From Blautia sp. (GTDB lineage: Bacteria; Bacillota; Clostridia; Lachnospirales; Lachnospiraceae): a DNA stretch of 34,930 bases. The notes under the pieces were generated by a model. The model was not told where the DNA came from. It saw only the letters and a list, made by a program, of their open reading frames with translations, and ran no database searches. The stretch is taken from the NCBI GenBank assembly GCA_017475035.1, contig JAFVGK010000141.1, positions 1 to 34,930 of the forward strand, read 5' to 3'. The position numbers were made by a program, and so were the translations under genes. Below, piece by piece: positions 6,093 through 34,241 of the stretch; the first letter of the stretch is position 1, and each line of letters starts with the position of its first letter.

Positions 6093-7853
6093 ATGAATAG
6101 AAAAAAACAGTTTTTAACGACATCCTGTTCTGTCGTGATCCTTTTCCTTATTCTGTTTCTTCCCGCAACAATCGCCGCCTCTTCCGAACCACCGGTTCCG
6201 GCCTTTCTTACGCCTTCCGGATATCAGACAGGCGAAGAAATCAACGCAGCCCGGCCGGAGGATATTGCAGCCGATGCACAACAGTCGGAAGAAACCGCTG
6301 CTGTCTCACAGCAATCCGCAGACAGTGCCGCTGTTTCACAGCAGTCCGCGGAAACCGCTTCTGACATACAGCAGTCCACGCTGCCTGCTTCCGATCCGCA
6401 GCAATCCGCGGATTCTGCTTCTGTTCAGCAGCAGCCCATGGACTCCGCTTCTGTTCCACCGCAGTCCGTGGATTCTGCTTCTGTTCCACCACAGTCCGCG
6501 GATTACGCTTCTGTTCCGCAGCAGTCCATGGACTCCGCTTCTGATCCGCAGCAGTCCATGGACTCCGCTTCTGATCCGCAGCAGTCTATGGGTACTGCAG
6601 CAGATCTGCAGCAATCTGAGGATGTCTCTGCCGGCATGCAGCAATCTGAAGACGCAGAAACTGATGAAGACACGGCCAAAGAAGAACAGGCGATAAAATT
6701 AGAGAAGTTAATCCGGCGGATCAAAAGAGCAGAGGGTTCCTTGTACGCCCATGACCTCTTTGATTCCTCCGCCTATGAAGGAACATGGGTATCTCTTACA
6801 GGTCATGAAAGCTCACCGGGATATAAGATTTATCTTCCTTCCGGCTGGTACATCCATGCGGCTTATACCAAGGACCGCTGTTATCAGCTCAGTTACGAGA
6901 GCGAATCTGCAGAGGGTAACCTTGATCTCGCAGTTTTCTGTTTTTTTCCAAAAGGGGATGCCGCCGGCAGGGCTTTAACCAGGATGAAACCTCTTGCGGC
7001 ACTTTATCAGACATACGGAAACGAAAAAGCCTGGTCTGAAAAAATCACCCTCAGCGGATTTACCGGTCATGCCTGTTATTATTGGGATAAAGAAGACTTT
7101 ACCTTCCTCTTTCTTGGCAATAATGTTCCCGGCGAAGCTCTTCTCGTAAGCCTGAGCGGAAATATACCGACAAAAAAGATATTCGAAAAAATCGAGGTTC
7201 TTTTATCCTCGATCCGAGGAATCGAACGAACCGATAAACTGGTCTGGACGAGTGGTGACTGTCTGATTGGTTCGAAAACGGCAGCCCAAGGGGAAGGAAA
7301 CGTTCTGCGTCTGGTTCTTCCGCTCCCGTCTCCGACTCCTACGCCGACGCCGCTGCCCACCCGTCCCGCGACGCCGACTCCCCTTCCAACCCCTACGCCG
7401 ATTCCGGTTCCTGATTTTGTCTCTGCTTATACGGCGCCATACGTCGAAACCTACGCGGGGACCGAACCTTCTGCACAATCATCGAATGCTCCTGATACAT
7501 CGGGTCAGCCTGTAATGCCGGATAATACTGCCGTACAGCCTGCTGCAAACGTAACTTCCGTCCCGCAGCAGCCCGCTGCAAACACCGGTTCTTCAACGGA
7601 TCCCGCTTCTGCTCCGTCAGGAAATGATGCTCCGGAAAACCAGACTGCCGATCCTTCTTATGATGATCTTTTCATGTTTGACAGTTTTACTTCCGAGGGT
7701 GACAGTGGAATCTATGGTGATGCAGCTCCGGTGGAATCAGAAATGCCTTTAGATTTTGACAACTACTCTGTCGGATCTGAGGATCAGAATCCGTACGATG
7801 CCCCATATGAGGAGCAGAATTACGACGATTACGATCCTTTTGCCGAATGGTGA
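6093..7853 (+). CDS. Exported repeat-rich protein of unknown function
   Basis: A 586-residue protein I do not recognise as a family. Residues 1-30 are a signal peptide or membrane anchor (basic start, then a long hydrophobic stretch). Residues about 63-192 contain 13 copies of a 10-residue repeat, consensus QQSxDSASxP, encoded by a 30-bp DNA repeat at about 6279-6668. Residues about 200-410 look globular, with conserved-looking YKIYLPSGWYIHAAY and a mix of strands and aromatics. A Pro/Thr segment (PTPTPTPLP and similar) follows near 410-445, then a low-complexity acidic tail rich in Asp, Tyr and Asn. This layout suggests a surface or wall-spanning protein with two flexible spacers. It starts 2 bases after the HAD stop with no clear Shine-Dalgarno sequence, so translation is probably coupled. 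Repeat number may vary among strains. Confidence 0.75.
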   Translation: MNRKKQFLTTSCSVVILFLILFLPATIAASSEPPVPAFLTPSGYQTGEEINAARPEDIAADAQQSEETAAVSQQSADSAAVSQQSAETASDIQQSTLPASDPQQSADSASVQQQPMDSASVPPQSVDSASVPPQSADYASVPQQSMDSASDPQQSMDSASDPQQSMGTAADLQQSEDVSAGMQQSEDAETDEDTAKEEQAIKLEKLIRRIKRAEGSLYAHDLFDSSAYEGTWVSLTGHESSPGYKIYLPSGWYIHAAYTKDRCYQLSYESESAEGNLDLAVFCFFPKGDAAGRALTRMKPLAALYQTYGNEKAWSEKITLSGFTGHACYYWDKEDFTFLFLGNNVPGEALLVSLSGNIPTKKIFEKIEVLLSSIRGIERTDKLVWTSGDCLIGSKTAAQGEGNVLRLVLPLPSPTPTPTPLPTRPATPTPLPTPTPIPVPDFVSAYTAPYVETYAGTEPSAQSSNAPDTSGQPVMPDNTAVQPAANVTSVPQQPAANTGSSTDPASAPSGNDAPENQTADPSYDDLFMFDSFTSEGDSGIYGDAAPVESEMPLDFDNYSVGSEDQNPYDAPYEEQNYDDYDPFAEW

Positions 7854-14980: not shown

Positions 14981-14985
14981 AAAGA

Positions 14986-15057
14986 GCGATAGACGGGGCT
15001 CGAACCCGCGGTCTCGACCTTGGCAAGGTCGCGCGTTACCAACTACGCCACTATCGC
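14986..15057 (-). tRNA. tRNA-Gly (anticodon GCC)
   Basis: A full cloverleaf reads on the minus strand: acceptor GCGATAG/CTATCGC, anticodon stem CGACC/GGTCG with loop TTGCCAA giving anticodon GCC, T-loop GTTCGAG. The discriminator base would be T, as expected for bacterial Gly. The CCA end is not encoded. It is cotranscribed with the other tRNA-Gly 24 bases upstream. Confidence 0.95.
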
Positions 15058-15081
15058 ATACCAGAATATTGTGCCTGCTAA

Positions 15082-15151
15082 GCGGGTGATGGGAATCGAA
15101 CCCACGTATTTAGCTTGGAAGGCTAATATTCTACCATTGAACTACACCCGC
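15082..15151 (-). tRNA. tRNA-Gly (anticodon TCC)
   Basis: Minus-strand cloverleaf with acceptor GCGGGTG/CACCCGC, anticodon stem TTAGC/GCTAA with loop CTTCCAA giving anticodon TCC, and T-loop GTTCGAT. No encoded CCA. It is the first gene of a two-tRNA transcript; together the two isoacceptors read all four Gly codons. Confidence 0.95.
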
Positions 15152-15260: not shown

Positions 15261-15506
15261 TGACGCTCGGCTTCAGGGTTTGTACTGGCTCCCGGATCAA
15301 TGTCACATTCGCTCTGCCGTAAAATAACAGCCGAGCCATCTTCTCCTAAAACGAAATTTGTACGTTGACTCAATCTCTTCGGATGACGATTTTGTTGCTT
15401 CGGCAGTTGGACTGCCGAAGACAAAATCAGTCTCGTCGATTATTTTCCGAATGTGTCGCTCATTGTGACATCGTTCCGTCCGCCTCCGTGTTATGAGCCG
15501 GGCTGA
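15261..15506 (-). repeat. R1 self-complementary repeat, copy A (variant centre)
   Basis: Begins TGACGCTCGGCTTC and ends ATGAGCCGGGCTGA. The outer arms match the other R1 copies (ATGTCACATTCGCTC; AATAACAGCCGAGCC; CAGTCTCGTC; TCGCTCATTGTGACATCG). The central part differs: instead of the usual GGGAGAC...CTCCC hairpin it holds a different strong hairpin at 15388-15428 (arms around ACTGCCGAAG and CTTCGGCAGT). It lies between the tRNA promoter and the end of ccsA. Assigned minus because the tandem copies at 33216-33763 run the other way. Confidence 0.75.
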
Positions 15507-18869: not shown

Positions 18870-18930
18870 GTTTAAAACAGAAAATGGAAGACATGAATGA
18901 ATATCGATTGAAAGAATGATTTATTTCTGA

Positions 18931-19056
18931 TATACTTCATCTGTTATGCTTCATCTGTTATGCTTCATTTGTTATGCTTCATTTGTTATACTTCATCTGT
19001 TATACTTCATCTGTTATACTTCATCTGTTATACTTCATCTGTTATACTTCATCTGA
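18931..19056 (+). repeat. Nine tandem copies of a 14-bp repeat
   Basis: Unit TATACTTCATCTGT, nine head-to-tail copies; three copies have G for A at position 4 and two have T for C at position 11. Degenerate half copies follow to about 19078. The array lies in the 543-base gap between the divergent HTH and GIY-YIG genes. Copy number probably varies. Nothing else is recognised between the array and 19175. Confidence 0.92.
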
Positions 19057-31102: not shown

Positions 31103-31185
31103 GCGACAGCCTGACGCCCGGATAGAGTGCAGGGTCTCAGGCGACAATTGACGCCCGGATAGAGTGCAGGGTCTTAGGCAACAAT
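31103..31185 (-). repeat. 38-bp tandem repeats at the edge of R1 copy B
   Basis: Two units (31103-31140 and 31141-31177) share GACGCCCGGATAGAGTGCAGGGTCT, each starting GCGACA. A third partial unit (GCAACAATTGACGC) leads straight into R1 copy B. The R1 edge thus appears to have been duplicated. Confidence 0.8.
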
Positions 31186-31422
31186 TGACGCTCGGCTTCT
31201 GGTCTTGCACTGGCTCCCAGATCGATGTCACATTCGCTCAGCCGAAAAATAACAGCCGAGCCATCTCCCGTGGGAGACTAAAGGTCTGAGATGTCTCCGG
31301 AAGAGCCGGAGCCACCTCAGGCCTTAAGTCTCCCATCGGTTTCAGTCTCGTCAATTATTTTTCAAATGCGTCGCTCATTGTGACATCGATCTGTCCGCCT
31401 CTCAAGGTTATGAACCGAGCTG
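31186..31422 (-). repeat. R1 self-complementary repeat, copy B
   Basis: 237 bases from TGACGCTCGGCTTC to ATGAACCGAGCTG. It holds GATGTCACATTCGCTCAGCC, AATAACAGCCGAGCC, a central hairpin at 31272-31334 (GGGAGACTAAAGGTCTGAG / CTCAGGCCTTAAGTCTCCC), CAGTCTCGTCAATTATTTTT and TCGCTCATTGTGACATCGA. The two halves are complementary throughout. The direction is opposite to the array at 33138-33763. Confidence 0.85.
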
Positions 31423-31816: not shown

Positions 31817-33001
31817 TTATACAAACTCCTTCGCCAGCTTTGCAAACTGAGGAAGAGAATTCATAATCGTATCATAGGAGACACAATATGCAAGGCGTAC
31901 ATAACCCGGGCAGGCAAAGGAGCTTCCCGGTACCATTAATATATTGTATTTCTTTCCCGCCTCGACAAAGGCCTTTTCATCCTCTACCGGAGATTTTACA
32001 AACAGATAGAAGGCACCTTGCGGTTTGATGCAGGTAAAGCCAAGCTCTGTCAGTCCGTTATATAACGCCTGACGATTACGGTCATAAGCCGCCACATCAC
32101 ATTCTGCGTCCACACATTTTGCAATGACCTTCTGCATAAGAGAAGGAGCGTTGACGGCGCCGCTGATCCTGTTTGCGATCGTTACTGCCGCGATGAGTTC
32201 TTCGCTTTGGTCAACCTCATCGGGAATAACCAGATAACCGATCCTTTCTCCCGGCAGGGATAAGGATTTGCTGTAGGAATATCCGACTACGGTATTTGCG
32301 TAATATTTGGTCAGATAAGGAACTTCTACGCCATCATATGCCAGCTCCCTGTACGGTTCATCACTGATCAGATAGATCACCGTGCCATATTCCTTCTGCT
32401 TCTTTTCCAGAATTGCAGCCAGTTTCTTAATAGTCTCCTCTGAATAGACGACACCTGTCGGATTATGCGGGGAATTCACAATGACCGCTCTTGTCTTCGG
32501 CGTGATTTTCTCCTCAAACTCTGTCAGATTCGGCTGGAAGGTCGCTGTATCCGGAGTAATCTCCACCAGAACGCCGTCATAGTTCCTCACATATGCCCCA
32601 TATTCCAGGAAGTAAGGAGCGAAAACGATAACCTCTTCTCCGGGATTCACTACAGCCTTCAGCATAATATTCAGACCGCTGGCAGCGCCAACCGTCATGA
32701 TCAGATTTTTAGCCGCAAAGCAAGTCCCAAAACGCCTGTTCAAAGATCCTGCAATTGTCTGCCTTACGTCCTCAAAGCCGGCGTTGCTCATATATCCATG
32801 CACGACGAGAGGATCTTCTTCGTTTACAAGCTCGATGATCGCTTCCTTCACGCACTCCGGTGCCGGAACGGACGGATTACCAAGACTGAAATCAAATACA
32901 TTTTCCGGGCCGTACAAAGCCTTCAGGCGGTTTCCTTCCTCAAACATCATGCGGATCGCGGAATTATTACGGATGAAGGGTTTCATTTTTTCTGCTATCA
33001 T
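31817..33001 (-). CDS. Pyridoxal-phosphate-dependent aminotransferase, class I/II
   Basis: A 394-residue aminotransferase of the aspartate/aromatic fold-type I group. The PLP lysine is in SYSKSLSLPGERIGY, the substrate/cofactor Asn in NSPHNPTGVVYSEE, the Asp-Tyr in ISDEPYRELAYD, and the C-terminal Arg in CPGYVRLAYCVS. The N-terminal FSLGNPSVPAPE is typical of clostridial AspC-like enzymes. The likely reaction is transamination between glutamate and oxaloacetate, but aromatic or alanine specificity cannot be excluded. The ATG follows AAGGAGA by 7 bases. It is a single gene with its own promoter, flanked by repeats. Confidence 0.93.
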   Translation of the reverse strand: MIAEKMKPFIRNNSAIRMMFEEGNRLKALYGPENVFDFSLGNPSVPAPECVKEAIIELVNEEDPLVVHGYMSNAGFEDVRQTIAGSLNRRFGTCFAAKNLIMTVGAASGLNIMLKAVVNPGEEVIVFAPYFLEYGAYVRNYDGVLVEITPDTATFQPNLTEFEEKITPKTRAVIVNSPHNPTGVVYSEETIKKLAAILEKKQKEYGTVIYLISDEPYRELAYDGVEVPYLTKYYANTVVGYSYSKSLSLPGERIGYLVIPDEVDQSEELIAAVTIANRISGAVNAPSLMQKVIAKCVDAECDVAAYDRNRQALYNGLTELGFTCIKPQGAFYLFVKSPVEDEKAFVEAGKKYNILMVPGSSFACPGYVRLAYCVSYDTIMNSLPQFAKLAKEFV

Positions 33002-33055
33002 GATCGGTTCTCCTTCTTTTATGTCTCTCTGACGGAGACGTTTTCTTCTCGGTGC

Positions 33056-33084
33056 ATCATATCATATTTCACTTCCAAACGCAA
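33056..33084 (-). promoter_or_regulatory. Promoter of the aminotransferase gene
   Basis: On the minus strand: -35 TTGCGT (33079-33084), 17-base spacer, -10 TATGAT (33056-33061). Start site near 33049. Confidence 0.6.
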
Positions 33085-33137
33085 GTTGGCACCTACATCC
33101 CCATATTCTTTCATGCGTTCAAAGCGTCTTCATTATC

Positions 33138-33763
33138 CAGCTCGGCTGTTATTTTTCGGCTGAGCGAATATGACATCGATCCGAGAGCCTGTGCAGGCCT
33201 TGAAGCCGAGCGTCAGCCAATCGTTTGCACCATAAACTCCGGTTTTCACTACACAGCTCGGCTCATAACTTGAAAGGCGGACGGACCGATGTCACAATGA
33301 GCGACGCATTCGTAAAATAATTGACGAGACTGAAACCGATGGGAGACTTAAGGTCTGAGGTGGCTCCGGCTCGTCCGGAGACATTTCAGACCTTTAGACT
33401 CCCACGGGAGATGGCTCGGCTGTTATTTTTCGGCTGAGCGAATGTGACATCGATCCGGGAGCCCGTGCAAGCCTTGAAGCCGAGCGTCATTCAATTGTTT
33501 ACACCATAAGCTTCGCCTTTCACCACACAGCTCGGCTCATTACCTGAAAGGCGGACGGACCGATGTCACAATGAGCGACGCATTCGTAAAATAATTGACG
33601 AGACTGAAACCGATGGGAGACTTAAGGTCTGAGGTGGCTCCGGCTCGTCCGGAGACATTTCAGATCTTTAGTCTCCCACGGGAGATGGCTCGGCTGTTAT
33701 TTTTCGGCTGAGCGATTGTGACATCGAGCCGGGAGCCCGTGCAAGCCTTGAAGCCGAGCGTCA
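33138..33763 (+). repeat. R1 tandem array (copies C, D, E), 274-bp period
   Basis: Two full units (33216-33489 and 33490-33763, 274 bases each) follow a 78-base partial unit (33138-33215). Each full unit is a 38-base spacer (including CAAT[CT]GTTT[GA]CACCATAA) plus a 236-base self-complementary element (33254-33489; 33528-33763). The central hairpins are at 33341-33403 and 33615-33677. The partial unit equals a full one minus 158 bases lying between two GCTCGGCT motifs, so it looks like a recombination deletion. The array fills the aminotransferase-atpC gap; there is no gene in it. Confidence 0.92.
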
Positions 33764-33792
33764 TATGATTGTCCGAATCTGAGAAGCATTAC

Positions 33793-33826
33793 GAAAAAAA
33801 GTGAGCCAGGGTCCCCCCTGACTCAC
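33793..33826 (-). terminator. Terminator of the atp operon
   Basis: On the minus strand, GTGAGTCAGGGG / CCCTGGCTCAC followed by seven T, just after atpC. Confidence 0.9.
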
Positions 33827-33842
33827 TGATTCACCGCTAAAT

Positions 33843-34241
33843 TTACTGTACGGAAAGCCGCACAAGCGCTCTCTGCAGTTTTGCAGAAAAAACTTTATAT
33901 TCTTTGTCACTGATCCCTGACTGAGACAGCTTTTCTTCGGCACGTTCCTTTGCTTTCTGCGCGCGTTCACGGTCGATATTTTCCTTCCATTCCCAGGTCG
34001 TGGCAAGCAGACGGCATACACCGTTCATCATGGTAATCATACCGCCGATGCAGGCAGCATTTCTCCTGGTACCATCTTCGAGAACGATATGCGCCTCGCC
34101 CATCCCAAGAGCCGTGCAAAAGTTGATATGGCCTGCCAGAATCGCAAGATCTCCCGTAATCGAACGGCAGACAACGCGCTCCACTTCTCCGTCGAAGCAG
34201 ATCCCATCAGGCGTACCGATCTGAAGAGGAAATGTCTTCAT
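33843..34241 (-). CDS. atpC: F-type ATP synthase epsilon subunit
   Basis: A 132-residue subunit of the F1 central stalk, which couples rotation to catalysis and can inhibit ATP hydrolysis. The N-terminal beta-sandwich shows FPLQIGTPDGICFDGEVERVVCRSITGDLAILAGH, and the two C-terminal helices start near residue 87 (ENIDRERAQKAKERAEEKL). Its length is normal. The ATG has a consensus AAAGGAGGTG site and lies 12 bases after atpD. It is the last gene of the atp operon, followed by the terminator at 33793-33826. Confidence 0.96.
   Translation of the reverse strand: MKTFPLQIGTPDGICFDGEVERVVCRSITGDLAILAGHINFCTALGMGEAHIVLEDGTRRNAACIGGMITMMNGVCRLLATTWEWKENIDRERAQKAKERAEEKLSQSGISDKEYKVFSAKLQRALVRLSVQ

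Follow-up and report, generated by a model that had tools for sequence, protein, structure and literature searches.

The tandem array at positions 33140-33763 of the window, as the whole analysed stretch of 34,930 nucleotides from a Blautia genome is called here, is one locus of a real family of multi-copy, structure-conserved and non-coding Blautia elements which are most likely mobile and non-autonomous. On balance we favour a non-autonomous mobile foldback element which resembles REPINs and MITEs as a population and which would be recognised by its folded shape, the arrays being secondary products of local duplication. What reaches beyond dispersal in this mechanism we infer. Three options had been offered by the original prediction, and from these the non-autonomous element fits best because an orthologous gap is free of the element in four of six congeners, because the copies are intergenic in all four gene arrangements, and because their occurrence is patchy. 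The other two options, a structured RNA and a nucleoid or replication site, are weighed below as parts of broader explanations.

TRF called the array at 33140-33764 with a period of 274, 2.3 copies and 94% matches, the repeat copies 33140-33413 and 33414-33687 being 94% identical, and a stretch of 76 nt is present three times with starts at 33140, 33414 and 33688. The array consists of two 274-bp units and a partial unit of 76 bp, and each full unit contains an imperfect palindrome of 236 nt. Two full units and a partial one arranged head to tail had indeed been predicted, the partial unit with 78 bases; it has 76 and is the left-most of the three. In its biological register the array reads, on the plus strand, right-arm remnant, full element, full element, separated by 38-nt spacers. 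The remnant of the right arm (B), the first and incomplete unit (33140..33215), carries the left tip CA followed by GCTCGGCT fused straight to the B arm, as if a deletion had occurred between two GCTCGGCT repeats. It is followed by spacer 1 (33216..33253), made up of a weak right collar and a weak left collar (TTTTCACTACA), by copy 1 of the full element (33254..33489), by spacer 2 (33490..33527), which resembles spacer 1 and is specific to the array, and by copy 2 (33528..33763). The left arm (A) of copy 2 (33528..33613) begins with CA followed by GCTCGGCT, its central hairpin (33614..33678) contains a T.T mismatch in the context CTTAA/TTTAG, and its right arm (B, 33679..33763) terminates in AGCCGAGC followed by GTCA. 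The central hairpin is as foreseen except for its length, which is 65 nt in both copies (33340-33404 and 33614-33678) and not about 63. The self-complementary design proposed for the 236-base element was borne out, with GCTCGGCT and AGCCGAGC at its ends and ATGTCACA facing TGTGACAT. The stretch 33490-33780 has a predicted folding energy of -120.9 kcal/mol compared to -87.7 +/- 5.3 kcal/mol for 200 dinucleotide shuffles (z -6.2, no shuffle as low), and the opposite strand yields a z of -6.4. As also anticipated, the flanks are an aminotransferase gene (PF00155, 31817-33001, minus strand) and the ATP synthase epsilon and beta genes. The array sits between a terminator-like hairpin behind atpC (33827-33800, minus strand) and the start of the aminotransferase gene (33001, minus strand) and is antisense to both. 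The hairpin corresponds to a palindrome at 33800-33827, AGTGAGTCAGGGGGGACCCTGGCTCACT, followed by T6 on the minus strand, and is apparently the atpC terminator.

Two further copies are found in the window. A full copy at 31186..31422 on the minus strand is directly followed by a 37-bp tandem repeat (31112-31195), every unit of which ends in the GCGTCA tip of the element, as if the right tips alone had been duplicated. The copy C21:21441 is followed by a tip repeat of similar kind. The second is a divergent full-length copy at 15261..15505, also on the minus strand, in which the centre is replaced by another hairpin, and which lies near two tRNA genes (14985-15151).

The genome from which the window derives, in the following called the home genome, is a 5.08-Mb draft of 200 contigs which is 93.6% complete with 5.0% contamination. 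At least 83 blast pieces matching the element were found in it (40 of 55 first-look candidates scored) and grouped into 40 loci. When left arm, hairpin and right arm were scored separately and all full copies aligned, the census yielded 27 full-length copies (one with the different centre), 21 right-arm remnants and 11 short forms which lack the central hairpin; in one more copy, C111:22094, the left side is truncated. When the left arm was used as query, with 40 of 45 candidates scored, 38 left arms were obtained, each of them within a full or short copy, together with two matches which were core pieces of 21-22 nt; the remnants are therefore one-sided, consisting of right arms only. Among the loci listed, several short forms and right-arm remnants appear to have arisen by deletion between short direct repeats. 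The remnants at 33140, C121, C167:17938, C179:807 and perhaps C31:215 resemble deletions between two GCTCGGCT repeats, and the idea that all right-arm remnants are 5' truncations was dropped for this reason. As the home genome is a metagenome-assembled draft with the contig number and contamination given above, an artefact of assembly or contamination was also considered. It is hardly credible, as the copies differ in their flanks and in their private changes, as related rods occur in two other genomes, and as a similar family is present in a genome assembled into a single contig of 4.69 Mb.

Long gene-like frames are free of copies at all 40 loci. At five of the 40 the element extends 3-59 nt into the end of an adjacent frame, and 13 have a small frame (70 codons or more) running across it. 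The gene context was counted where both sides have a frame of 100 codons or longer, which holds for 37 loci, and comprised 14 and 9 co-directional, 7 convergent and 7 divergent arrangements, with median distances of 117 and 120 nt from the element to the neighbouring genes. Weak conservation extends beyond the 236-nt core for about 11-20 nt to the left (TTTCACTA) and for 6-15 nt to the right (GTTATC), and the element is perhaps 255-286 nt long when these collars are counted. Such a placement, at a median of about 120 nt from each neighbour, would also suit a chromosomal service site, where each rod is a transcription boundary, a nucleoid-protein site or a replication-related site under selection at its own locus. 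The strong constraint within the copies and the position of several copies, among the loci listed, just past the terminator-like hairpin of the upstream gene point in the same direction. That the rods serve in this way is nevertheless distinctly unlikely, since all four gene arrangements occur, since orthologous gaps are element-free in four congeners, since the element is present in only three of 64 genomes of the genus, and since both terminator sites detected between 33000 and 33900 are outside the element.

In the gap between the aminotransferase and the atp genes, none of five element motifs is found in four of six congeners, in agreement with the proposal that element-free orthologous gaps should be looked for, and the remaining two (G061 and G082) contain a different palindrome. 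In G069, 148 nt separate the ends of the blast matches that stand 853 nt apart in the home genome. These gaps indicate absence of the element at the level of the locus, the orthologous intergenic DNA being too diverged to define an exact empty site and no movement of a copy having been observed. Concerning the arrays, the arm pieces have the same orientation within each of 18 clusters, although the second piece of one cluster is only 36 nt long. Three arrays contain two full copies, which in each case are mutual nearest relatives differing by 2.6-4.8%, and dispersed copies diverge more than array neighbours, with the exception of C111 and C162, which differ by 2.2%. As array neighbours are closest relatives, the tandem arrangement is best read as local duplication, secondary to and not the mode of the family's spread. 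Three copies with TCC in place of GGA in the left arm were at one point regarded as independent arm conversions, but they group together with a support of 0.935 and this idea was dropped.

Pairing of the two arms is conserved throughout the family. In the 27 full copies 97.3% of the cells of 76 pairs are paired. Twenty of the 76 pairs have changed on both sides, compared to a mean of 4.5 in shuffled alignments with none of 500 shuffles reaching 20, so that the covariation for which a check had been suggested is present; the structure was derived from the same sequences and related sequences can exceed shuffles. Sliding the partner lowers pairing to 34-40%, a comparison in which the derivation of the structure favours it over the slid versions. 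Among 34 core pairs compared over three genomes (18 sequences), 13 have changed on both sides, with 55 such cells compared to 14.6 in shuffles and none of 500 shuffles as high. The number of changes per column, counted in 26 copies with the divergent copy omitted, is 0.97 for paired columns, 0.38 for the eight columns of core loop 1, and 6.1 and 5.6 for unpaired linkers near the ends. Changes are thus few both in paired columns and in core loop 1, which means that pairing and particular unpaired bases are both constrained. The ends are also well kept, with CAG in 26 of 27 and CGTCA or CGTCC in 25 of 27 copies. A T.T mismatch in the context CTTAA or CTTGA/TTTAG is found in the predicted fold of 22 rods and missing from that of five.

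A search by blastn and by a covariance model of the element (R1) found matches in three of 64 genomes of the genus, which was taken as Blautia because of the named matches. These are the home genome, in which many copies lie outside the window, G062 and G085. G062 contains one copy with poorly paired outer arms and a predicted fold without the T.T mismatch. In G085 two subfamilies occur, subfamily I with six full cores and one cut core and subfamily II with eight. The rods of G085 are more perfect, down to -249 kcal/mol across 293 nt, and their stems are unlike those of the home genome. The motifs CGAGAC and GGCTCG and the apical GCTCCGG..CCGGAGAC are common to the home genome, G062 and subfamily I, and subfamily II retains CGAGAC and GGCTCG. 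Those G085 rods of which the ends are present have CA, the stem and GTCC, and nine of ten have a T.T mismatch in CTTR/YTAG context in their predicted folds. As A.G (13) is more frequent than T.T (11) among the mismatches in G085 and A.C (11) equally frequent, it is the CTTR/YTAG context and not the T.T itself which is notable. A pattern of the core matched 68 stretches collection-wide, of which the covariance model confirmed only those in Blautia RGIG5651 and RGIG5706, both from sheep duodenum; an earlier, first pattern had given no match in the genome contig collection. The search of the wider family matched one of 397 genomes, the home genome itself, with about nine candidates scored per genome under strict filters which distant relatives can escape. 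Within the sensitivity of these searches, the family occurs in a few Blautia and is not widespread in the Lachnospiraceae. Matches in viral contigs were followed as well: one contig matched by the first pattern has phage structural genes and no blastn match to the element and was taken as a chance hit, and three viral matches of a second pattern were not confirmed by the covariance model. A plasmid or phage origin was likewise sought, with no match for the array of the home genome nor for a rod of G061.

Another finding was a second rod family in G061, the single-contig genome mentioned above. A scan for palindromes covered 400 kb each of G061 and the home genome, with 19 and 18 found respectively, and 200 kb each of G029 and G004, where there were none. 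The scan was not blind, the home part having been taken from copy-bearing contigs and the G061 part including the aminotransferase-atp gap, and some of the 37 palindromes are weak or belong to other families. This family, with a core of its own (GCGTTATG ... CATG.TTTTAGC), is made up of five G061 rods, of which two are almost the same. They are located at L328 13239-13441, L330 141-355 and 8952-9166, L337 1247-1445 and L340 6187-6394, and one of them occupies the same aminotransferase-atp gap as the array of the window. All five have the ends CAG...CGTC(C/A), and their tips are of the type CTGAGCG...GCGAG. In a structure predicted from these same five sequences, 395 of 415 cells of 83 pairs are paired and 45 pairs show compensatory change. 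CTTAG/CTTAG was counted seven times among 24 home and five G061 rods, the occurrences being by sequence those of G061. The rods of the home genome, G085 and G061 thus have in common the ends 5'-CA[G...C]GTC(A/C)-3' and usually a T.T mismatch in CTTR/YTAG, and the home rods belong to a group defined by shape that includes one other family or more.

According to the favoured mobile foldback reading, the 236-nt element would fold back on itself as a single long rod, and an enzyme supplied in trans would read the folded single strand, recognising the core loops together with CA/GTC at the base of the rod and not the sequence of the stem. Copies would insert between genes, and arrays such as 33140-33763 would arise later, when neighbouring right arms undergo unequal exchange or slippage. 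The stems may be rewritten in part by template switching from one arm to the other, with core loops and T.T mismatch retained through selection for mobility. A classical MITE, in contrast, would be a deletion derivative of an insertion sequence with a transposase recognising terminal repeats. The size, the intergenic placement, the terminal inverted repeats GCTCGGCT/AGCCGAGC and the internally deleted forms would all suit such an origin. It is very unlikely, however, as no target-site duplication above shuffles was detected in 24 copies (exact words of 4, 5, 6 and 8, at offsets from 0 to 29 on either side), as no autonomous parent with the same left end was found in the 93.6%-complete home genome (40 of 45 left-arm candidates scored), and as a transposase of this type would presumably not need conserved core loops. 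As candidates for the mobiliser Y1, RVT_1 and IS110 were each searched in 12 chosen genomes of the 64. Above the cut-off, Y1 is absent from G062 and RVT_1 and IS110 from G085, each is also found in genomes without rods, and none tracks the rods in these 12 genomes. Y1 is represented by one fragment of 50 positions at a contig edge in the home genome, by a contig-edge fragment in G085 and by nothing in G062, in genomes which are 79-94% complete. That the rods persist because the palindrome nuclease has been lost was rejected as well, as SbcD (TIGR00619) scores above the cut-off in all three carriers and in 60 of the 64 genomes.

A weak spot of the mobile foldback reading is the ratio of 21 right-arm to no left-arm remnants, which a simple DNA-transposon model does not predict. 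Another is the lack of the T.T mismatch in the predicted folds of five home rods and of the G062 copy. The strand bias of the folds and promoter-like matches also count against mobile DNA, as both could mean RNA. In an RNA-based explanation, which we regard as rather unlikely, transcription of the plus strand would give a rod-shaped RNA. This RNA would either belong to a family of structured small RNAs or be reverse-transcribed into new copies that retain the 3' end but lose the 5' end. Incomplete reverse transcription would leave such one-sided remnants, but several of these resemble deletions between GCTCGGCT repeats and not 5' truncations, and G085, a 79%-complete genome, has no RVT_1 match. 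The plus strand folds better in 25 of 27 home rods and in all six rods of subfamily II of G085, and over 37 rods it has 200 G.U pairs compared to 131 for the other strand; against this, the minus strand folds slightly better in four of four rods of subfamily I, one of them a partial rod. Six pairs are G.U in at least 10 copies and one pair is A.C in five copies, a count per pair in which G.U is favoured because the structure was chosen on the plus strand with G.U allowed. Selection on RNA should favour G.U over A.C, and as departures from the commonest Watson-Crick pair (75 pairs) comprise 37 G.U and 29 A.C cells, or 21 and 20 states, no clear bias is present. Five promoter-like matches were found in 33000-33900 where 0.8 +/- 1.0 are expected, all on the plus strand in the left arms of both copies, overlapping one another and falling within the element. 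A terminator scan of the same region detected two sites, both outside the element and none within it. In Rfam the rods had no match at gathering score, the only matches being to microRNAs and snoRNAs far below their gathering scores. We lean to a folded DNA strand with a strand preference, which would fit most of the strand data, and RNA might fit them too.

Among known systems, those closest in behaviour are the REPINs, extragenic hairpin populations with compensatory changes, tandem clusters including flanking sequence, and single-arm remnants (PMC3116915), in all of which the rods resemble them. REPINs, however, are doublets of REP sequences near RAYT genes (PMC3116915), whereas the rods have 200-300 nt, CA/GTC ends, family-specific stems and conserved core bases, and in the 93.6%-complete home genome only the contig-edge fragment of a RAYT-type (Y1) gene was found. 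The GTAG-type tag described in PMC3733652 was not found, the rods of the home genome, G061 and G085 ending in CA...GTC. Closest in tag are the CGTC-tagged REPs, which have CGTC at one end and a short unpaired tail, often CCA, at the other (PMC3733652); the rods have CA at the 5' and CGTC(A/C) at the 3' end. These REPs, for which the source names five phyla, Firmicutes not among them, and no known transposase, have stems of 8-9 bp with loops of 4-5 nt and mostly form head-to-head dimers (PMC3733652), whereas the rods have 76 and 83 pairs in 200-250 nt and neighbours arranged head to tail in 18 of 18 clusters. Bacterial MITEs are likewise small, non-coding, intergenic, strongly folding inverted repeats (PMC10969869), but differ by target-site duplication, not detected above shuffles in 24 copies of the rods, and by a parent insertion sequence, of which none with the same left end was found among the 40 of 45 candidates scored. 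Integron attC sites offer an analogy only, as sequence-variable folded sites recognised by structure (PMC2727003), from which the rods differ by being scattered over the genome. Template switching is a published maker and keeper of hairpins (PMC8794818) and would account for coordinated change in both arms, but acting alone it would presumably also erase the conserved mismatches which the rods retain. REPINs, CGTC-tagged REPs and classical MITEs each have at least one tested defining feature which the rods lack, and in the literature consulted no described repeat of this kind from Blautia or Firmicutes was recognised. The original prediction likewise knew no named repeat of this design, and what was found in its favour are copies outside the window, covarying pairs and no identity to a described repeat or RNA family.

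It is possible, though somewhat doubtful, that the rods are an undescribed class of mobile elements, here called 'CAG...CGTC rods'. These would be foldbacks of 200-300 nt with stems rewritten between lineages but still complementary, perhaps by template switching, and with end tags, core loop and T.T in CTTR/YTAG kept near constant by an enzyme reading the folded single strand. If this is true, a mobile element of a common gut genus is recognised by its shape and not by stem sequence, and libraries based on sequence families would miss such elements. In that case the rods, whose stems are rewritten and whose loops hardly change, would also form a set for asking how long palindromes arise, how they persist despite sbcD, a gene present by sequence match in the carriers (home genome, G085 and G062), and how they move without a known enzyme.

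Some additional observations concern the surroundings of the rods. The copy in G062 is near a tRNA gene, like the divergent copy of the window, and C111:22094 is near an apparent tRNA gene, judged by appearance and not by a tRNA finder. Palindromes of the type TGAGTCA...TGACTCA, like the one behind atpC, are common in G085 and often lie at contig ends. Other long palindromes of the home genome, L348 15469-15622, L349 14038-14195, L353 13084-13248 and L358 14531-14674 and 16390-16580, have CTAAGGATTG-like or GGATTGCC-like ends and look like separate MITE-like families. Elsewhere in the window, a Clostridiales-1 RNA (RF01699) was found at 80-280 on the minus strand with 58.3 bits, degenerate tandem repeats of 30/60/90 bp at 6331-6613, and 9.3 copies of a 14-bp tandem repeat, TCTGTTATACTTCA, at 18926-19055.
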